Of a DNA stretch of 64,000 nucleotides, positions 11,093 to 23,684 are shown one piece after another. Under the pieces are notes generated by a model. That model saw only the letters and a program-made list of their open reading frames with translations, had not been told where the DNA came from and did not search any database. A program made the translations under genes and the position numbers. This DNA is from Paenibacillus thiaminolyticus. Its GTDB lineage: Bacteria; Bacillota; Bacilli; Paenibacillales; Paenibacillaceae. The DNA lies in contig NZ_CP041405.1 in the NCBI RefSeq assembly GCF_007066085.1, forward strand, positions 5,039,001 to 5,103,000, in the 5' to 3' direction. Each line of letters opens with the position of its first letter. Within the stretch, counting starts at the first letter, position 1.

Positions 11093-11689
11093 ATGCAAGA
11101 ACAGGCAAGTGACAAGAAAGGATTGCGCTTCCAGGACATTCTCATTACCGTCATGATCGGGGTCGTCTTCGGCGTCATCTTCAAGCTGTGGGATAGCGTG
11201 TACAGCATCGTGAAGCCGCTGTTCCCGCAGGCGGGGCAATTGACTTACGGCATGTGGTTCATGGCCGGGCCGTTCGCCTACTTGCTTATCCGCAAGCCGG
11301 GCGTCGCGCTCATTGCCAGTCTGGCCGCAGCCAATCTGTCGGCCCTGCTCGGGTCGGGATGGGGGCTGGAGACGATCATGTACGGATTCGTCCAGGGCTT
11401 GGCGGCCGAGCTCGTCTTCGCCTTGGCGCGTTACCGCCGGGGAGGATTAGCGATTGCCGGAGCGGCCGGAATCATGTCGGCTGCCGGCTCTTTCCTCCTC
11501 GATCTCGGTTACGGCTATGCCAATTACGAGACATGGGTGCTTGTGCTGAAATACGGGCTGCGCGTCATCAGCGCCTTCACGTTCGCCGGCATCTTCGCAT
11601 ACTTCCTGATGCGCGCGCTGGAGGCGACCGGGGTAACCAATTCGATTCGGCCAGTTGGGAAGGAAGAATATGCGGCTCTGGACCGGTAG
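11093..11689 (+). CDS. ykoE: ECF transporter S component YkoE (hydroxymethylpyrimidine/thiamine precursor)
   Basis: A 198-residue membrane protein with about five or six hydrophobic segments and the YkoE-type substrate-binding look (QDILITVMIGVVFGVIFKLWDSVY at the start, FVQGLAAELVFAL in the middle). It gives an ECF transporter its specificity for a thiamine building block. The start MQEQASDKK is preceded by GGGAGAGGG; an upstream in-frame start at 11015 lies inside the riboswitch terminator and is excluded. It is first in an operon with the ATPase and EcfT genes. The companion thiamine-binding ykoF of Bacillus is absent. Confidence 0.88.
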   Translation: MQEQASDKKGLRFQDILITVMIGVVFGVIFKLWDSVYSIVKPLFPQAGQLTYGMWFMAGPFAYLLIRKPGVALIASLAAANLSALLGSGWGLETIMYGFVQGLAAELVFALARYRRGGLAIAGAAGIMSAAGSFLLDLGYGYANYETWVLVLKYGLRVISAFTFAGIFAYFLMRALEATGVTNSIRPVGKEEYAALDR

Positions 11690-11752
11690 GCGCAGGACAC
11701 CGGCTGGCGGGCAGGCCCGCAAGCCGGTCATCAAGGGCACAACAACGATGGG

Positions 11753-13294
11753 GTGTTGGGATTGACACAAGAACGAGCGGCCTCAACCTCGGCCGCGATT
11801 ACGAATCTGAGATTGAAATTCCCGGGAGAGGCGTCCTTGCTGTTCAAGGACCTCTCCTTCTCGATTGCTGCGGGGGAGAAGGTGCTGCTGCTCGGACCGA
11901 GCGGCTGCGGCAAATCGACGCTGCTGCAAGTGCTGAGCGGCATTATGCCGGGCTCGGTGGAAGTCCCGCTCAAATACGAGCGGAGGCAGCTCCCGGATAG
12001 CTGGGGCTTCGTGTTCCAGGATCCGGATACCCAGTTCTGCATGCCGTATGTCGATGAGGAATTGGCATTCGTCCTGGAGAATCTGTCGGTTCCGCGGGAG
12101 CAGATGGAGCCGCGCATGATAAGCATATTGGAGCGGGTCGGGCTGCGGCTGGATGAACTGCATACGCCGATTGCGGCGCTATCGCAGGGCATGAAGCAGC
12201 GGCTGGCGCTCGCCTCCGTCCTGCTGCTGGAGCCGGAGGTGCTGTTCCTGGATGAACCTTCGGCTCTGCTCGATCCGGAAGGGACGCAGCAGATCTGGGA
12301 GACGGTGAAGGACATCGCCGGCTCGCATACGCTGCTGATCGTGGAGCACAAGCTGGAGTTGGTAGCCGATATCGTTGATCGGGTTGTACTGTTCGACAGC
12401 GAGGGCCGCATTATGGCAGATGGCGAGCCAGGTGCTATTTTCACGATGCACAAGGAGAAGCTGATCGAATACGGCATCTGGTATCCGGACGTGTGGCGGG
12501 ATCATGTGAAGTCGGAGGCGTACCGCGCCGTCGCGAGCGCCAAGCGGCGGCAGCGCCAGACCGAAGCGGCGACCGCTCTTCGGGAGGAGCCGATCATCGC
12601 CTTGCGCGGGTTCTCCGGTTACCGGGGAGAAGCCGAGGCCATCGCCGTCGAGGCGGCCGATGTCTATCCGGGCGAATGGATCGCCGTCACGGGCCCGAAC
12701 GGCGCAGGCAAGAGCACGCTGCTGCTGTCCCTGATGCGGCTGCTTCGCACCAGCGGCTCCTATGTTATCGGGGGACGTCCGGTCCCGGAGCCGAAGCAGC
12801 GCGGCTGGTTCCGGAAGGCCCGGCCGGAACCGCCGGACGAGCTGGCCTTCGTCTTCCAGAACCCGGAGATGCAGTTCCTGACCGATTCCGTCTACGAGGA
12901 GCTGGCTTACGGCTTGCGGCTGGCGGAGTGGTCTGACGCTGAGATTGAGCGGCAGGTGACGGCCTTGATGGCGGCCTTCGATCTGGATATGGGAGCGGGC
13001 CGGCATCCGTACCATCTCTCGCTGGGGCAGAAGCGCCGCCTCAGCGTCGCCACCGCCGTCGTGCGGGAGCATCCGGTTCTGCTGCTTGACGAGCCGACCT
13101 TCGGCCAAGACGCGAGGAACACGTTCGCGATCCTCGACAAGCTGGAGCGTCTGCGGGCGGCAGGGACGGCTATCGTGATGGTCACGCATGATCTGAATAT
13201 CGTGCGTCACTATGCCGATCGCGTGTGGCAGGTCGAAATGGGCCGACTAACGGTGTTGGATACGAGCAGGGAACGGGAGGCGCAGCTTACATGA
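11753..13294 (+). CDS. ykoD: ECF transporter duplicated ATPase YkoD
   Basis: A 513-residue protein carrying two ABC ATPase domains in tandem, as in YkoD. Domain 1: Walker A GPSGCGKST near residue 48, signature LSQGMKQR near 143, Walker B VLFLDEPSALLD. Domain 2: Walker A GPNGAGKST near 315, signature LSLGQKRR near 421, Walker B VLLLDEPTFGQD. It energises uptake with YkoE and YkoC. The start codon is non-ATG: GTG 11753 is used here, but TTG 11762, 6 nt after GGGGTG, is at least as likely. A strong GC hairpin (11699-11728) separates it from ykoE. The stop overlaps the next ATG. Confidence 0.9.
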   Translation: MLGLTQERAASTSAAITNLRLKFPGEASLLFKDLSFSIAAGEKVLLLGPSGCGKSTLLQVLSGIMPGSVEVPLKYERRQLPDSWGFVFQDPDTQFCMPYVDEELAFVLENLSVPREQMEPRMISILERVGLRLDELHTPIAALSQGMKQRLALASVLLLEPEVLFLDEPSALLDPEGTQQIWETVKDIAGSHTLLIVEHKLELVADIVDRVVLFDSEGRIMADGEPGAIFTMHKEKLIEYGIWYPDVWRDHVKSEAYRAVASAKRRQRQTEAATALREEPIIALRGFSGYRGEAEAIAVEAADVYPGEWIAVTGPNGAGKSTLLLSLMRLLRTSGSYVIGGRPVPEPKQRGWFRKARPEPPDELAFVFQNPEMQFLTDSVYEELAYGLRLAEWSDAEIERQVTALMAAFDLDMGAGRHPYHLSLGQKRRLSVATAVVREHPVLLLDEPTFGQDARNTFAILDKLERLRAAGTAIVMVTHDLNIVRHYADRVWQVEMGRLTVLDTSREREAQLT

Positions 13295-17672: not shown

Positions 17673-17702
17673 GAAGGATTTGGCTCTCTTTTTGTAGAAT
17701 TA
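17673..17702 (+). promoter_or_regulatory. Perfect SigH-type promoter before the first kinase
   Basis: GAAGGATTT (17673-17681), 12 nt, GTAGAATTA (17694-17702). Every position agrees with the Bacillus SigH consensus RNAGGAWWW-N11-12-RNNGAATWW. It lies about 50 nt upstream of the kinase ATG, in a 487-nt gap that otherwise holds no gene; an open frame at 17379-17645 lacks coding character. Confidence 0.7.
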
Positions 17703-17754
17703 TTGCGAAATGGGGTAAAATGGCGAAACTAAGAGAAACGTGTAGGGGTGTGCG

Positions 17755-19644
17755 ATGAGTGTGCGAAGATACATAACCGTCTTCTTCTTATTCCTGATGC
17801 TGTTCGGGTGGCTTATGGACCCTGCCATCGCCCAAGCGGAGCCGGAGCCGCAGAGCATCAAGCTGTACGAATGGGAGATGCAGTGGGAGACGAGTCCTAG
17901 GATGTGGGAGGACATCGCTTCTACCCGGGAAGGCTGGGAGAAGGTAGATAGCAGGAAATCGATTCCGAAGCTGCCGGAGGGCGTAAAATCGGCATGGATT
18001 CGGATTCGGTTGCCGGAATTGGATTTGAACTATACGACGTTATATTTTAAGAAGCTGTACGCCAATGCGGTGGAAATATGGGGAGATGACGGCAGAAGGC
18101 TGTTCCATGATGAAAGAAATTACTTTTATGATGTTTACCATATCCTTTTGCCTTTAGATCCGAACTGTAGAACGGTATACATTCATATGACCGCAAGCAT
18201 TGATCGAATCGGCATCCAGCTTCCGGTAGTTATGGGTGAATATCAACAAGTTCAAGCGGAGTATGCCAAAGAAGGAATTTTAGAAATCGTGCTTGGCAGT
18301 GCAATGATTCTTATTGCCCTCATAATGTTGTTATGTGCAATTTTTTTACGTGGAATTGAACTGCCGAGTTGGCTCTCGCTGACACTTGTCATATTTTCGC
18401 TGGGCGTAATATCAATTACGTATTCCAAGTTTACTTATATGTTTTTTGATAATTTTGGACACATCAGCGTCATGTTATTTGATTTGGCGATGATGCTTTT
18501 GTTTCCTTGCCTGACCTACTTTTTTATGAGATTTTTAGGAAACGGTCCTTACAAAATAATTTGGAAATTCTTTATTTTCCAGGTTGTCTTTTCTGGAGTT
18601 TGGCTCCTATTATTTTTGTATTTCTTTATTATCATAGAAGAGCCTGCTCATCCTTTATATACCTTATTTTCATTTGAAGTATTCAGTGTCTATATGATTA
18701 TTCAATTTACTCTATTGATAATGTTCTCAATTAGCCGTGCCATTCGAAAGAACAAAGATGCTATTTTATTTGCAGTTGGTTTTAGCTTGTTCTCCATTAT
18801 GACAGTTGCAGAAGTCATTTGGTATATTTTTGTTTCCCGGGATTACGAACTGTATTTATGGAAATGGGGCCTTCTCAGTTTTGTTATCTGTCTTATCCTT
18901 ATACTGGGGCGTAAAATTGCGGAAAATCATCGCCGTGTCATCTCCTATGCCAAGGAGCTGGAGCTGTTCAACGGTAAGCTGCAGCAGTCCGAGAAGATGG
19001 AGATATTAAGCGAGCTGGCCGCATCGGTTGCGCACGAAGTAAGGAATCCGCTGCAGGTGACCCGTGGATTCCTGCAGTTGCTCGGTGGCAAGAGTGGAAC
19101 GAAGGAACAAAAATATTTGAACCTTGCCTTGACCGAACTTGATCGGGCCTCCGAAATCATTACCGATTTCTTAACGTTTGCGAAGCCGGAGCTGGATGAG
19201 ATTCAAGTCCTCGATGTAGCTGATGAGTTGAGGCATATCGAGGGCATTTTGATGCCGATGGCCACAATGCATGGGGGAGCGATCGAATTGGATGCTAATC
19301 CGGATCTCCGGATTCAGGGGAACTCATCTAAGTTCAAGCAAGCTTTTATTAACATGATTAAAAACAGTATTGAGGCTTTCACCCAAAAAGGACTGATTCG
19401 GATCGAGGCTTATGAGCGGGGAAGTCAGGTTATTATCCGGATAGAGGATAACGGTATCGGCATGGACGAGGAGGAGCTGAAGCGGCTTGGGGAGCCGTAC
19501 TTCTCGAACAAGACGAAGGGAACTGGTCTCGGCCTAATGGTTACCTTCCGTATAATTGAAGTGATGCAAGGGAAGCTGCATGTTGCGAGCGAGAAGGGAG
19601 TCGGAACCGTTATTACCATTTCCTTTCCCGCTATCCCAAAATAA
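17755..19644 (+). CDS. Orphan sensor histidine kinase with 7TM receptor module (paralogue 1)
   Basis: 629 residues. A signal peptide/first hydrophobic segment (about 5-26) is followed by an extracytoplasmic domain (about 27-172), seven membrane segments (about 175-386, 7TMR-DISM-like), a short coiled coil and a HisKA domain with His427 in AHEVRNPLQVTRGFLQLL. The HATPase domain has an N-box near 532-537 and G-boxes DNGIG (566-570) and GTGLGL. The H-box resembles that of the sporulation kinases KinA-KinE (AHEIRNPLTxxKGFxQ), and no response regulator is adjacent, so Spo0F is a reasonable inferred target. The membrane part is AT-rich. A sister kinase lies 1.6 kb downstream, and the peptide/isoprenoid-enzyme pair sits between them on the other strand. 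AGGGGTG is the ribosome site. Confidence 0.88.
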   Translation: MSVRRYITVFFLFLMLFGWLMDPAIAQAEPEPQSIKLYEWEMQWETSPRMWEDIASTREGWEKVDSRKSIPKLPEGVKSAWIRIRLPELDLNYTTLYFKKLYANAVEIWGDDGRRLFHDERNYFYDVYHILLPLDPNCRTVYIHMTASIDRIGIQLPVVMGEYQQVQAEYAKEGILEIVLGSAMILIALIMLLCAIFLRGIELPSWLSLTLVIFSLGVISITYSKFTYMFFDNFGHISVMLFDLAMMLLFPCLTYFFMRFLGNGPYKIIWKFFIFQVVFSGVWLLLFLYFFIIIEEPAHPLYTLFSFEVFSVYMIIQFTLLIMFSISRAIRKNKDAILFAVGFSLFSIMTVAEVIWYIFVSRDYELYLWKWGLLSFVICLILILGRKIAENHRRVISYAKELELFNGKLQQSEKMEILSELAASVAHEVRNPLQVTRGFLQLLGGKSGTKEQKYLNLALTELDRASEIITDFLTFAKPELDEIQVLDVADELRHIEGILMPMATMHGGAIELDANPDLRIQGNSSKFKQAFINMIKNSIEAFTQKGLIRIEAYERGSQVIIRIEDNGIGMDEEELKRLGEPYFSNKTKGTGLGLMVTFRIIEVMQGKLHVASEKGVGTVITISFPAIPK

Positions 19645-19648
19645 ATAG

Positions 19649-19686
19649 AAAAGAAGAGGGCTTCAAAAAGCGCCTCTTCTTTTTTC
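19649..19686. terminator. Bidirectional terminator between kinase 1 and the peptide gene
   Basis: AAAAGAAGAGG and CCTCTTCTTTTTT form a strong stem around a small GC inner hairpin, with A and T tracts on both sides. It ends the rightward kinase and the leftward peptide transcript. Confidence 0.88.
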
Positions 19687-19689
19687 GAA

Positions 19690-19935
19690 TTAATGCCACA
19701 CGCCTTTTTTTGCAACTGGGGTATCATTCACAACTTCGGACGGATTCGGCGGCAGGACCAGTACATACTGATTCAGCTTTTCTTCAACCGTAGTCAATTG
19801 AATATGGTCAGGAATCGAAATGCCTAATAATTCCTTGACGGCGGACTTTGGATCAGCAAGCAGCTTCTCTTTGAACGTGGCATCTTCCCATGCTCTTTGC
19901 ACGATTTGGTTCATATGCATTTGATTAATAGACAT
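19690..19935 (-). CDS. NHLP-leader-type peptide precursor with penultimate Trp (candidate modified pheromone)
   Basis: An 81-residue peptide. Residues 9-66 match the nitrile-hydratase-alpha-like leader family of RiPP precursors: IVQRAWEDATFKEKLLADP, then LGISIPDHIQL, then YVLVLPPNP. The short tail is SEVVNDTPVAKKGVWH, with the only core Trp at position 80. There is no Gly-Gly cleavage site and no Cys, Ser or Thr-rich core of the usual NHLP products. GGAGGG lies 9 nt upstream of the ATG. It is 76 nt downstream of the isoprenoid-enzyme gene in the same transcript, the order seen for comQ-comX. ComX precursors also carry their modified Trp within a few residues of the C-terminus. I infer a secreted, possibly Trp-prenylated signal; an unmodified peptide cannot be excluded. 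Confidence 0.8.
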   Translation of the reverse strand: MSINQMHMNQIVQRAWEDATFKEKLLADPKSAVKELLGISIPDHIQLTTVEEKLNQYVLVLPPNPSEVVNDTPVAKKGVWH

Positions 19936-20011
19936 ATAACTTATCCCTCCATATTTGTAGAATCAGAAGATTACAGGTAGATTACCATTGATAGATTCGG
20001 ACCCGCCAGTT

Positions 20012-20947
20012 CTATTTTGCTAGATTAGACAATATATATGAAAATCCGCCCGACATCAGCTTATTTCTTTCTTCATATATGTACTCCGCTTCTTGCCTCA
20101 GACTGTCAACCATCGCCTGATGGAAGGCGAGCAAGTTCGGGGAGGCGACAGGAAGCTGCTGGAGCCGGGCATGGTCCTCTGTCGCGATGGCAGCATAGCC
20201 CTGCAAGGCGTCGGACACCGTGATGGCCTGGCGCACCTCGTCGGGCGTCAGCGGAGCGCCAGACGGCCGGTCCGTCATGGAGCGGATCCAGGACAAAAGG
20301 CAATTGTAACTCCCTTCCCGCAAATCCTTCTCCCAGTCCTCTGCGTCATCGGACATTTGTAGCGTGACGAGCACAGTCTCTACCGCGGCCGTGATGTCGG
20401 GCAGTAAATGATCCGTTCCGCCAAGATAAGCGGCTCCCACGGCGGACAGCTTGACGGGTGACGCTTTGTGCGCGATTTTAATCCGTTCGCTCTGGAAGAA
20501 GTCCTGCTCCTGCTCCATGCTGACGGCTTCGGCCCATTCGGCGCTGTAGCGGTTGAAGGCATGCCAGAACGGCGAGCAGGAAGGGAACAGTTCACGGTAG
20601 ACCCTTTCATATTCGATGTAGCACAGATGTCCCAGCGCCAACGTCTTATGCCACCCTCTCTGCTCAGGGCTGTCCATGACATCATCGAGCAAGCAATAGT
20701 GCAGCATCATGAAGACGCCGGCCATTCCCAAGCGTCGGCAATCGCTTCGCTCCGCTTCGGTGGCCTTCTGCAGCCAGAACGGCAGCAAATAGCAGACATA
20801 GTTACTGGACTCAGTAAGCAGCGGGTTGGACTTTTCCAAATAGTGAAGGCCCATCTCCTGCAACGGTGCCGGGAATGATGAGATAAGGCGCGCCGCCTCT
20901 GCGAATATCGCCTCCAAATCCTCCTTGTAGTCGTCGAACCATTTCAT
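20012..20947 (-). CDS. Class I isoprenoid enzyme, ComQ-like candidate peptide prenyltransferase
   Basis: 311 residues, all-helical, with both aspartate-rich metal motifs of trans-isoprenyl transferases and terpene synthases: DDVMD (Asp88, 89, 92) and DDAEDWEKD (Asp200, 201, 204, 208). These bind the Mg2+-diphosphate of an isoprenyl donor. Its length is close to that of ComQ (about 300). No chain-elongation partner, squalene/phytoene gene or other terpene gene is adjacent; instead the next gene is the leader-peptide precursor and both flanks are membrane kinases, which favours a peptide-modifying role. Alternatives are a terpene synthase or a short-chain prenyl synthase making a free product. 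GGAGG lies 8 nt before the ATG, and a good SigA promoter lies at 21025-21053. Confidence 0.78.
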   Translation of the reverse strand: MKWFDDYKEDLEAIFAEAARLISSFPAPLQEMGLHYLEKSNPLLTESSNYVCYLLPFWLQKATEAERSDCRRLGMAGVFMMLHYCLLDDVMDSPEQRGWHKTLALGHLCYIEYERVYRELFPSCSPFWHAFNRYSAEWAEAVSMEQEQDFFQSERIKIAHKASPVKLSAVGAAYLGGTDHLLPDITAAVETVLVTLQMSDDAEDWEKDLREGSYNCLLSWIRSMTDRPSGAPLTPDEVRQAITVSDALQGYAAIATEDHARLQQLPVASPNLLAFHQAMVDSLRQEAEYIYEERNKLMSGGFSYILSNLAK

Positions 20948-21024
20948 ATTACTATCCTCCTGGGTCGAAATCGGACTTTCTCCTGGATCCGCTGCGACAA
21001 AATTCCTACATACCTAGTCTCTCT

Positions 21025-21053
21025 ATTATAGAAGCCATTGATCATCGGAGCAA
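21025..21053 (-). promoter_or_regulatory. SigA-type promoter of the isoprenoid-enzyme/peptide operon
   Basis: Read on the minus strand: TTGCTC, 17 nt, TATAAT, giving a leader of roughly 70 nt. A TGTCGAA (21071-21077) that matches the Spo0A 0A-box core TGNCGAA lies about 18 nt upstream of the -35. That single site is only suggestive. Confidence 0.65.
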
Positions 21054-21113
21054 CAACATAAGAAACAGGATGTCGAAAAACAAAAGCCAGGTAAGGGATT
21101 CATGGCGGATAGA

Positions 21114-21142
21114 GCAGGAAATTAGCGATAACTGTCGAATTA
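21114..21142 (+). promoter_or_regulatory. Perfect SigH-type promoter before the second kinase
   Basis: GCAGGAAAT (21114-21122), 11 nt, GTCGAATTA (21134-21142). All positions fit RNAGGAWWW-N11-12-RNNGAATWW. It lies about 60 nt upstream of the kinase start and is the second such promoter in the locus. Confidence 0.7.
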
Positions 21143-21203
21143 GTGCCAGTGTAGGATTGCGGTTCACCATCTCATTACATATTGGAACGGACAGAGGTGT
21201 CTT

Positions 21204-23105
21204 GTGAGAACAATTTTTAAATATTCAGCGGTATCGTTCCTGCTTCTCATGGCGGCTCTTCTTCTGTGCCCTTCTCTTCTGCGGGCGGAAGCGGAGCAGG
21301 GGGAATTGCAGGTGACGCAATGGCAGGTGCTGTGGGAGACGTCGGCCCGGGATTGGAAGGACATTTCCTCCACGGATGAGGGCTGGATAGATGTCGATAT
21401 TCGGGAAGACGGGCCCGATAAGCCCGAAGGGATTCAGTCGGCCTGGCTCCGGTTAACGCTGCCGCCGCTGCAGTGGGACAAGCCCGGTCTCTGGATTGAA
21501 CAAGTATATGCCTTCGAAGTAGAGGCATTCTCGGAAGAAGGACGAAGACTGTTCCGCTCTTCGCGGCTGTTCTCCTTCGACATGAATTCGGTGCTTATTG
21601 GGCTGGATGCCAGCGAAGAGGAGCAGGTGGTTTATCTTCATGTCAAAACCCCTGCAAGACAGTTGGGCATTCATGACACGATTAGGATCGGAGACTATCA
21701 AGAGCTGCTTCCCGAGTATGTCAAGCAAGGACTCGTCAATGTCGTCATGGGGAGCGCCCTCATACTTATTGCGGTGGTCATGCTCATTTGCACTCTTTTC
21801 CTCCGGAACATATTTTTCTCAAGCTGGTTGTCACTCTGCGTGCTTATTCTGTGCGCGGGCATTATGATTTTTACGTACTCATCGTTCACATATACGTTTT
21901 TTATCCATACCGAAGTATGGTCGCTCGTTATTTATGATTTTGCGATGCTGGTCTTTTTTCCGCTGCTTACCTATTATTTCGAAGTGACGTTCGGTCCGGG
22001 CCCATATTGGATTATCCGCAGGCTCCGGCAGATCCAGACCGCGTATTCGATTCTATCTCTGGCTGTGCTGCTCCTTAATGTTTTGTCGGATAACCGCTTT
22101 TATGATATGTACTATTTCCTGTCGATTCGGGTGCTCGGCTTCCTGATCCTGATTCAGTTCGTCGTGCTGATCACGGCGTCCATCCGTTATGCGTTCGACA
22201 AAGATAAAGACGCTCTTCTGTTCTGCGCCGGATTTGTCGCCTTTGCGTTGATTACCGGATGCGAATTAATCTGGTTCCTGCTTCATCCGGGCTATTATTA
22301 TATGGTGTACTGGAAGTGGGGGATCCTGCTCTTCGTCGTGGCCCTTATCATTATTCTGGGCCGCAAAATCGCGCGCAATCACGAGCAGGTCGTTCAATAT
22401 TCGAAGGAGCTGGAGCTGTACAACCACCGGCTTCAACGTTCGGAGAAGATGGAGATCATTAGCGAGCTGGCCGCTTCCGTCGCCCATGAAGTACGGAATC
22501 CGCTGCAGGTGACGCGGGGCTTCCTCCAACTGCTGGAGAAGCAATCCGGCTCGAAGGAGAAGGAGTACTATCATTTGGCGCTGACCGAACTGGATCGGGC
22601 ATCTGGCATTATTACCGATTTCCTCACCTTCGCGAAGCCCGAGCTGAATGAGCTCGCCCTGCTGAATGTGCGGGAGGAATTGGAGCATGTCCAAGGGGTT
22701 CTCCTGCCGCTGGCCAACATGCAGGGGGCGAAGATTACGCTCGAAGTGATGCCCGATCTCACGATTGAAGGGAACTCGTCCAAGTTCAAGCAGGCATTTA
22801 TCAATCTGGTCAAGAACAGCATTGAGGCTCTGCACAGCAACGGATGGATCCAGATTGCCGCTCATAAGCAGGACGGGCAGGTCATCATCCGGATTCGGGA
22901 CAACGGAGTAGGAATGGACAAGAAGGAACTGGCGCGGCTGGGCGAGCCTTATTACTCGAACAAAACGAAGGGTACGGGCCTAGGGTTGATGGTGACCTTC
23001 CGCATCATCGAAGTAATGCAGGGCAAGCTGGAGTTCCACAGCGAGAAAGGCGTCGGAACCGAGGTTACCGTAACTTTTCCGGCCGTGGAGAAGGAACAGA
23101 AGTAA
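21204..23105 (+). CDS. Orphan sensor histidine kinase with 7TM receptor module (paralogue 2)
   Basis: 633 residues, collinear with the kinase at 17755: signal segment (about 5-28), extracytoplasmic domain (about 30-175), seven membrane segments (about 178-388), coiled coil, and HisKA with His428 in AHEVRNPLQVTRGFLQLL. Its ATPase domain has N-box residues near 533-538 and the G-boxes DNGVG and GTGLGL. The kinase halves of the two paralogues are nearly interchangeable by eye (for example SKFKQAFIN, NKTKGTGLGLMVTFRIIEVMQGKL), while the sensor halves have diverged more. This suggests different ligands or thresholds feeding one phosphorelay. The start is GTG with AGAGGTG upstream. The frame ends directly against a truncated nuclease gene. 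Confidence 0.88.
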   Translation: MRTIFKYSAVSFLLLMAALLLCPSLLRAEAEQGELQVTQWQVLWETSARDWKDISSTDEGWIDVDIREDGPDKPEGIQSAWLRLTLPPLQWDKPGLWIEQVYAFEVEAFSEEGRRLFRSSRLFSFDMNSVLIGLDASEEEQVVYLHVKTPARQLGIHDTIRIGDYQELLPEYVKQGLVNVVMGSALILIAVVMLICTLFLRNIFFSSWLSLCVLILCAGIMIFTYSSFTYTFFIHTEVWSLVIYDFAMLVFFPLLTYYFEVTFGPGPYWIIRRLRQIQTAYSILSLAVLLLNVLSDNRFYDMYYFLSIRVLGFLILIQFVVLITASIRYAFDKDKDALLFCAGFVAFALITGCELIWFLLHPGYYYMVYWKWGILLFVVALIIILGRKIARNHEQVVQYSKELELYNHRLQRSEKMEIISELAASVAHEVRNPLQVTRGFLQLLEKQSGSKEKEYYHLALTELDRASGIITDFLTFAKPELNELALLNVREELEHVQGVLLPLANMQGAKITLEVMPDLTIEGNSSKFKQAFINLVKNSIEALHSNGWIQIAAHKQDGQVIIRIRDNGVGMDKKELARLGEPYYSNKTKGTGLGLMVTFRIIEVMQGKLEFHSEKGVGTEVTVTFPAVEKEQK

Positions 23106-23684
23106 GGCAGCAACTACGGGGAACTCAAGAAATGTGTGACGATCAACATTTTGAACTATTCGTGCCTGCCGAATGAACGATACCATAATGTATTTCATTT
23201 GCGCGAAGATCATTCGCTTATTCCGCTTATTGATGACATTGAGATTCATGTCATGGAACTGCCCAAGCTGGATCAATACGAGGTTCCATTGAAGGGTGGT
23301 TTAGTGAACTGGTTATTGTTTTTGAAAGGTGCATACAAAACCAATTGGGAGGTGTTGACAATGAACGAACCCATGCTGAAAAAGGCGATGACGACCTTGG
23401 AATTTTTGAGTCAGGATGAACAGACGCGGATGGAATACGAAGCCCGTCAGAAATATCTGCTTGACCAAGCCTCTCGAGTCGAGGGGGCTAGAGCGGAAGG
23501 AAAAGCAGAAGGAAGAGCAGAAGGAAGAGCCGAAGGAAGAGCCGAAGGAAGAACCGAAGGAAGAACCGAAGGAAAGGAAGAAATGGCCCGGAAACTGCTT
23601 GCTCTCGGCGCTGACATCACTCTTATCGCAAAAGCCTCGGGGCTGTCCGAAGAAGAAGTTAAAAAGCTGAGACCGCTCCATTAA
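23106..23684 (+). pseudogene. 5'-truncated Rpn/PD-(D/E)XK nuclease-transposase family remnant
   Basis: Directly after the kinase stop, in the same frame, the translation continues GSNYGELKKCVTINILNYSCLPNERYHNVFHLREDHS. This is the middle of the Rpn/YhgA-like PD-(D/E)XK nuclease family, whose N-terminal nuclease core is missing. The C-terminal part has the usual AEGR-type repeat (seven 12-nt units, 23493-23576) and a helix-turn-helix-like tail. A GTG at 23136 could still start a 182-residue product, but the catalytic domain would be absent. The abrupt junction at 23105/23106 marks an old rearrangement. Confidence 0.7.
23493..23576 (+). repeat. 12-nt tandem repeat encoding AEGR units
   Basis: Seven degenerate copies of a GCAGAAGGAAGA-type unit within the nuclease remnant. 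In-frame repeats of this kind are typical of the C-terminal region of this family. Confidence 0.85.

Follow-up and report, generated by a model that had tools for sequence, protein, structure and literature searches.

A PalQ/PalX/PalP-type locus of Paenibacillus thiaminolyticus in which peptide core and kinase sensor co-vary: a candidate prenylated-tryptophan signal directed to the sporulation phosphorelay

Two described systems come close to the locus reported here, which occupies positions 17673 to 23105 of a 64,000-nucleotide stretch of the Paenibacillus thiaminolyticus genome (contig NZ_CP041405.1, positions 5,039,001 to 5,103,000; the whole stretch is hereafter the window) and encodes a PalX-type precursor peptide, a PalQ-type enzyme and two sensor histidine kinases. 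The closer of the two is the Pal cluster of Paenibacillus alvei, a cluster for a ribosomally synthesized and post-translationally modified peptide (RiPP), whose enzyme PalQ transfers a C5, C10 or C15 prenyl group in vitro to indole C3 of the last tryptophan of PalX (PMC10853753; Miyata, Ito, Fujinami 2023); because of this work, the prenylation chemistry of a Pal-type locus is already known. According to the sections of that paper drawn on here, the PalX leader is helpful, not essential, for prenylation, activity is lost once an alanine is added after the tryptophan, and a lysate cleaves PalX eight residues from the C-terminal end; in the main text PalP appears a single time, described as a histidine kinase, and quorum sensing is mentioned only for ComX. 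The papers found to name PalQ were this one and a review (PMC13290415), passages of which make no mention of histidine kinases or of Paenibacillus. The second system, ComQXPA, resembles Pal in having a class I isoprenoid-fold enzyme, a tryptophan near the C-terminus of a ribosomal peptide, and a polytopic kinase as reader, and its ComX/ComP pairs form pherotypes, groups that communicate within but poorly across (passages of PMC4008528). PalQ and ComQ are at most 25% identical (PMC10853753).

The window locus is a diverged ortholog of the P. alvei cluster: the three gene families, the leader type and a tryptophan at or near the C-terminus are the same, whereas in the window two kinases (K1 and K2) flank the enzyme/precursor pair and one residue follows the tryptophan. 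Compared with ComQXPA, the leader is of the NHLP type, the kinases are sporulation-type HisKA proteins instead of members of the ComP kinase family (PF07730), no ComA is a neighbor, and the kinase gene is convergent with the peptide gene. Membership in ComQXPA was rejected, there being no ComQ or ComX match, a HisKA domain of PF00512 rather than PF07730, and more than 52 kb to the nearest response regulator. What is new in this work is what we infer of a receptor assignment, of pherotype islands and of sporulation wiring. We put at about two in three the probability that the PalX-type peptide, the PalQ-type enzyme and K1, a receptor that switches together with the peptide, form a private quorum-sensing channel feeding the sporulation phosphorelay. 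An earlier note on this DNA had placed four open reading frames in the locus, an enzyme and an 81-residue precursor enclosed by two seven-transmembrane (7TM) HisKA kinases, and all four were recovered where it had put them:

17673 to 17700, plus strand: sigma-H-like promoter of K1, GAAGGATTT, spacer 12 nt, GTAGAAT (by a consensus that we assume)
17755 to 19644, plus strand: K1, PalP-type 7TM sensor histidine kinase of 629 amino acids, likely peptide receptor
18000 to 18999, plus strand: K1 sensor island, part of the ectodomain and 7TM region, from nucleotide identity in 200-base bins
19645 to 19689, both strands: terminator-like hairpin between the convergent K1 and precursor genes
19690 to 19935, minus strand: PalX-type NHLP precursor of 81 amino acids, C-terminus KKGVWH
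19690 to 19734, minus strand: variable core of the precursor, the second island, from nucleotide identity among relatives
20012 to 20947, minus strand: putative PalQ-type tryptophan prenyltransferase of 311 amino acids, from homologues, residues and model
21071 to 21077, plus strand: 0A-box-like TGTCGAA upstream of K2
21114 to 21140, plus strand: sigma-H-like promoter of K2, GCAGGAAAT, spacer 11 nt, GTCGAAT (same assumed consensus)
21204 to 23105, plus strand: K2, second PalP-type kinase of 633 amino acids, its sensor not co-varying with the core

Both kinases carry HisKA (PF00512), HATPase_c and 7TMR-DISM_7TM domains, the 7TM match being above the cut-off in K1 and below it in K2. The model of K1 (predicted local distance difference test score, pLDDT, 78) combines an ectodomain of beta-sandwich type with seven long helices, of which the last continues into the kinase part; a Pfam scan of the K1 ectodomain alone was empty. 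The hairpin between K1 and the precursor has T runs on both strands, and none of 200 shuffles folded as well on either strand (z -4.6 and -3.8).

Comparative work used loci of named genomes holding the enzyme, the best 80 of 216, which are numbered with the prefix L. The Pal gene set reflects more than chance, since 77 of these 80 loci hold a precursor and a kinase beside the enzyme in a fixed orientation, the precursor being read in the same direction as the enzyme and convergently with the first kinase in all 77; conservation of the peptide and enzyme genes as neighbors, which the earlier note had proposed to check, was thus found. At L063 a contig end falls inside the precursor. Two or more full kinases are present in 24 of the 80 loci, and five (L002, L003, L039, L040 and L064) share the window's arrangement of a kinase ahead of the enzyme; an apparent sixth, L013, was an artefact of a short contig.

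The receptor assignment comes mainly from the window and its close relatives L128, L002, L003 and L129, of which L128 nearly matches the window in its core. Identity was scanned in 200-base bins along the locus, and the window agreed with the other four at about 82-97% of nucleotides in most bins up to the end of K2. Against L002, L003 and L129, identity fell to 69-83% per bin over the K1 sensor (18000 to 18999; 74-75% in the 7TM region) and to 53-56% in the precursor core, with a smaller dip of 81-84% at the 3' end of K1, while against L128 it was 91-99% per bin over the sensor (97% in the K1 7TM region) and 91% in the core. The enzyme (90-93%), the leader (88-94%), K2 (92-93% in its 7TM region against L002, L003 and L129) and the upstream gene did not switch. 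At the protein level, K1 sensors were down to 66-73% identity where the core differs, and the K1 7TM region was 70-73% identical across core types and 90-99% within them. Core and sensor thus co-vary between conserved flanks, as in ComX/ComP pherotypes, and because the K1 sensor switches with the precursor core while the enzyme, leader and K2 do not, we regard K1 as the likely receptor for the mature peptide.

A second clade behaves similarly. L027 and L028, whose cores end in ESIW, are 96-99.5% alike in the receptor bins (11400-12999) and 86-95% alike in the enzyme, leader and downstream flank, and L028 is 72-90% alike to L014, L030 and L035 in the same receptor bins; upstream of the enzyme, L028 gave no alignment in this comparison. 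In a third case, L011 and L015, identity was 63-72% in the sensor bins and 81-87% in the enzyme, with no alignment in the downstream flank. Rank correlations over all pairs of all loci lay between 0.22 and 0.57 among all six measures and were uninformative, and we therefore permuted within six clades, in which 23 of the 80 loci were usable. Core identity correlated with that of the K1-type 7TM region (r = 0.74, p = 0.010) and ectodomain (r = 0.56, p = 0.018) and showed no such correlation with the enzyme (r = -0.02, p = 0.59) or the leader (r = 0.10, p = 0.30).

Silent differences, counted at four-fold sites in 15 chosen pairs with no correction for their number, help to separate exchange from selection. 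In two clades some receptors resemble each other more closely than the enzymes do, silent sites included (sensor against enzyme: L027/L028, 7/123 and 29/104, p = 6e-6; L030/L035, 5/114 and 20/95, p = 2e-4; window/L128, 17/121 and 30/118, p = 0.03), which indicates that receptor alleles have been exchanged between species. Across core types the sensor exceeded the enzyme in silent divergence (window/L002, 46/82 and 25/132, p = 4e-8), with the same direction in window/L003, window/L129, L128/L129 and L128/L002.

With regard to output, the genome holds 95 receiver matches, the nearest response regulator to K1 or K2 lies more than 52 kb away, and K1 is an orphan HisKA kinase. Its kinase half found 41 other HisKA kinases at E 1e-8 or better; five of the seven closest (118-145 bits) lack a receiver within 5 kb, the remaining two having theirs at 3.7 and 2.4 kb, whereas all of the other 34 (83 bits or less) have one within 2.5 kb. 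In a structure search with K1, kinase halves headed the best 50 of 890 matches. By sequence, the closest relative of solved structure was sporulation kinase KinB (E 1.8e-52, 181 bits), followed by ZraS (111 bits). At the six specificity positions, whose offsets from the phosphohistidine we assume, 108 of 110 PalP proteins read QVGFQ[LIV], one reads HVGFQI and one gave no match to the motif; K1 has QVGFQL. This agrees with KinB (TVGFQL) at all but position 1, the KinA-KinE set being T[AVSG]GFQ[LI] (PMC6136694, Table 1). The KinA-KinE kinases are, like PalP, orphan HisKA proteins with GFQ-type specificity residues (PMC6136694, PMC12826061, both in part), whereas PalP differs in its 7TM/beta-sandwich sensor, its pairing with a peptide and the Q at position 1. 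The seven orphan-like kinases of the genome have GF[QK][LM] at positions 3-6, and GFQL was absent from all 20 receiver-paired kinases that were read out. Spo0A is present, and the candidate for Spo0F is a 161-amino-acid frame between pyrG and fba (gene names from the sequences), a gene order that we take to mark the Spo0F neighborhood; its specificity residues, read by eye, are QGILEVD. These are identical to those of Bacillus subtilis Spo0F (PMC6136694, Table 1), and key phosphorelay proteins occur in more than 99% of Paenibacillus genomes surveyed (PMC12826061). The single-domain receiver with the best response-regulator score (6246498) was rejected as Spo0F because it is a CheY homologue among flagellar genes. 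The view of the earlier note that these are sporulation-type HisKA kinases and not HPK7/LuxR partners is borne out by the KinB match, the orphan status and the specificity residues, from which we infer that K1 signals to Spo0F.

Both window kinases are preceded by sigma-H-like boxes without mismatch to RNAGGAWWW-N11/12-RNNGAAT, which we take to be the sigma-H consensus. The perfect pattern occurs upstream of 6 of 103 PalP genes and none of 773 control open reading frames and was too strict, so we counted boxes with at most one mismatch and a spacer of 11-12, with control-frame, spacer and permuted-consensus controls. Since the loci are related, these promoter counts are not independent: a box preceded 45 of 103 PalP genes as against 31 of 773 control frames, and also 6 of 80 precursors and 3 of 81 enzymes; over 300 permuted consensuses, boxes stood before 3.0 of the 103 PalP genes on average and before 15 at most; and spacers peaked at 11 and 12 only (29 and 17), the next highest count being 10, at spacer 21. 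The motif evidence thus favors the SigH-driven kinases of the earlier note. TGTCGAA, the core of the 0A box (PMC3485338), was present on the forward strand ahead of 46 of 103 PalP genes and 33 of 773 controls; in the window a second copy (21133-21139) overlaps the K2 -10 box. No claim is made from the apparent enrichment of boxes before precursors (35 of 80), because many of them lie within the final codons of the enzyme gene (W-L-S-K). In one clade (L023, L049, L058, L079 and L080), two TGTCGAA boxes about 30 bp apart precede the precursor, which suggests direct Spo0A control of the precursor there.

The pathway that we propose would begin with co-transcription of enzyme and precursor, as their constant co-direction suggests. 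The enzyme would then move a prenyl group to indole C3 of the tryptophan, as P. alvei PalQ does in vitro, and a protease would free roughly the last 8-10 residues, a cleavage shown with a lysate in the P. alvei case only. The lipopeptide would leave the cell; no other gene family was seen as a constant neighbor. The K1 ectodomain and 7TM region would read it, as co-switching suggests, and K1 would, as kinase or as phosphatase, alter the phosphorylation of Spo0F and hence of Spo0A, judging from its orphan status, KinB similarity and specificity residues. Sigma-H, perhaps with Spo0A~P, is predicted from the motifs to drive kinase expression at entry into stationary phase. K2 might be a second input to the same relay, with another or a broader ligand.

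Several points weigh against the quorum-sensing reading. The pathway steps are read from sequence and from in vitro work on P. alvei rather than from living cells. Core identity correlates with the kinase half of K1 as well (r = 0.55, p = 0.0014), so linkage contributes, as would be expected for a linked or wholly exchanged gene, and the permutation set is small, at 23 loci. The silent-site tests are 15 uncorrected choices of which several are not significant, and switching is not everywhere sharp, L014 and L030 (SFW and NMW) still being 85% and 78% alike. No sigma-H box was found at the stringency used before 58 of 103 PalP genes, and position 1 of the PalP specificity residues is Q, not the T of KinA-KinE. 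The enzyme is missing from 68 of 394 sampled family genomes, and two of the 80 enzyme loci (L012 and L075) lack precursor and kinase. Finally, PalQ did not accept an alanine after the tryptophan (PMC10853753), yet the window peptide ends in Trp-His and 24 of 80 precursors have trailing residues.

An unlikely alternative, though one of the two that survive best, makes PalX a prenylated lipopeptide that is antimicrobial or self-acting, with PalP sensing the cell's own product to control immunity or production, as with autoinduced bacteriocins. NHLP leaders typify RiPP natural products, peptides prenylated by PalQ have been tested as antimicrobials (passages of PMC13290415), and an autoinduced bacteriocin would also yield co-switching of core and receptor. 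However, no constant exporter or immunity gene of at least 120 amino acids was seen within 7 kb of the enzyme, since no other open reading frame family of that size was common to more than 24 of 81 loci, and those 24 were antisense to the kinases. Nor is a response regulator near the locus in this genome, and the PalP specificity residues point to a shared Spo0F pool. The enzyme, moreover, occurs in 326 of 394 sampled family genomes and 15 of 19 genera, mostly as a single match, which is more like a core regulatory gene. In a sample of the class it was found in 37 of 398 genomes, 36 of them in Paenibacillaceae and one in another family of the order, and within the genus, enzyme, precursor and K1-type sensor occurred together in the same 12 of 19 genomes, with none of the three in the other seven.

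About equally doubtful is the proposal of the earlier note that two receptors serve one signal, K1 and K2 reading the same peptide in a graded or competing manner. Both kinases do flank the pair, with sigma-H-like boxes and the same specificity residues, but across the five related loci K2 sensors stay at 81-92% (ectodomain) and 93-98% (7TM) whether the core is the same or different, whereas K1 falls to 66-73%. Only K1 co-varies with the core; K2 is a real paralog, but its sensor does not follow the variable core as that of a receptor would.

It is slightly less likely again that core and K1 sensor both evolve fast under weak constraint and agree by coincidence, PalP sensing, for example, the state of the envelope. 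Fast divergence is common for sensor ectodomains, the informative clades are few, and L014/L030 and L017/L026 have no significant sensor/enzyme difference at silent sites (p = 0.37 and 0.22; for L028/L030, p = 0.06). Against coincidence, enzyme and leader are uncorrelated with the core, and silent divergence of the sensor exceeds that of the enzyme between core types (window/L002) and falls below it within some (L027/L028), a contrast which suggests that whole alleles move.

Neither Pfam nor NCBIfam gave a match to the enzyme up to E 1, a sequence search found 49 homologues, and the AlphaFold2 model of the enzyme (pLDDT 93) matches polyprenyl diphosphate synthases (19 Protein Data Bank chains at E 0.001 or better, template-modeling score by query 0.49-0.71). 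The window enzyme is 47% identical to PalQ of P. alvei (locus L006), in which D89/D93, D200/D204, Q197 and K39 are all conserved; the window counterparts are D88/D92 of the first aspartate-rich motif, D200/D204 of a motif like the second, Q197 and K39, so that the residues marking the PalQ family are present and the enzyme is predicted to prenylate the near-terminal tryptophan of the precursor. A role in free terpene synthesis, with the peptide not being a substrate, is very improbable despite the fold match, given that the P. alvei ortholog prenylates PalX in vitro (PMC10853753), the residues checked are conserved here, and the precursor gene adjoins the enzyme gene in 77 of 80 loci. The tryptophan-prenylated NHLP peptide of the earlier note is supported by its P. 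alvei orthologs, but not as a first description, the P. alvei cluster having been published in 2023.

The precursor matches NHLP leader TIGR03793 above the cut-off (E 3.4e-16) and has, in Pfam and NCBIfam, NHLP-type matches and no ComX match. Its tryptophan is invariant in 21 aligned precursors and penultimate in the window peptide (GVWH). Among 80 precursors from 78 loci, two of which have two copies each, tryptophan is the last residue in 55 and is followed by one or two residues in 24, with tails such as Trp-His, Trp-Gln and Trp-Gly-Asp; it is thus among the last three residues in 79, the remaining one being the P. alvei DSM 29 record (L006:10912-11295), whose tail is out of frame relative to the published core peptide through a strain difference or an assembly error. 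No enzyme column separates the Trp-His members (window and L128) from the Trp-terminal ones (L002, L003 and L129), the nine other splits into two and three giving 0 to 16 such columns, so either the enzyme of this clade tolerates a short tail or the tail is trimmed first. How a family tested as strict for terminal tryptophan serves Trp-His, Trp-Gln and Trp-Gly-Asp precursors is a chemical question that these tails raise.

For the quorum-sensing channel, these results name a candidate ligand, enzyme and receptor, pick the partner kinase out of two, and predict from sequence alone who can hear whom. To our knowledge no crowd signal of Paenibacillus has been established. PalP would gain a use, the sections of the PalQ paper drawn on here (PMC10853753) assigning it no function. 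We hold it slightly better than an even bet that Paenibacillaceae have a second, separately assembled prenyl-tryptophan pheromone system, present in most genomes of the family, whose RiPP-type lipopeptide and orphan 7TM kinase are pherotype alleles co-inherited and exchanged between species, and with output to the Spo0F relay, not ComA. If so, pherotype-diverse pheromones with prenylated tryptophan would occur on two dissimilar leaders and with two dissimilar families of kinase, and social control specific to the pherotype would extend to sporulation in Paenibacillaceae.

Other features were noted in and around these loci. PADLOC gave no match. Directly after K2, positions 23136-23684 of the window hold a partial PDDEXK-family transposase, matched by PF12784 over profile positions 111-229 only, that carries a repeated EGRAEGR tail. 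The downstream AIM24-like gene of the window has no alignment in L128, so the edge after K2 is either rearranged between relatives or lies beyond the stretch fetched. L049 and L079 carry two head-to-tail copies of the precursor-kinase unit (X-P-X-P), in which every precursor has a variable tail of its own. Proteins resembling PalP, about 400 amino acids long, that end after the 7TM region, with no Pfam kinase domain, adjoin full PalP genes in L130 (1425-2645) and L131 (1690-2892) and are possible decoy receptors. In Paenibacillus popilliae the K1 gene is split into two open reading frames (L004:11676-13565; with one internal TGA in genome G010); a second kinase was not found, and the enzyme and precursor frames are open. 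A third K1 allele, 82% identical to window K1 over the sensor, occurs in P. thiaminolyticus (P0072).

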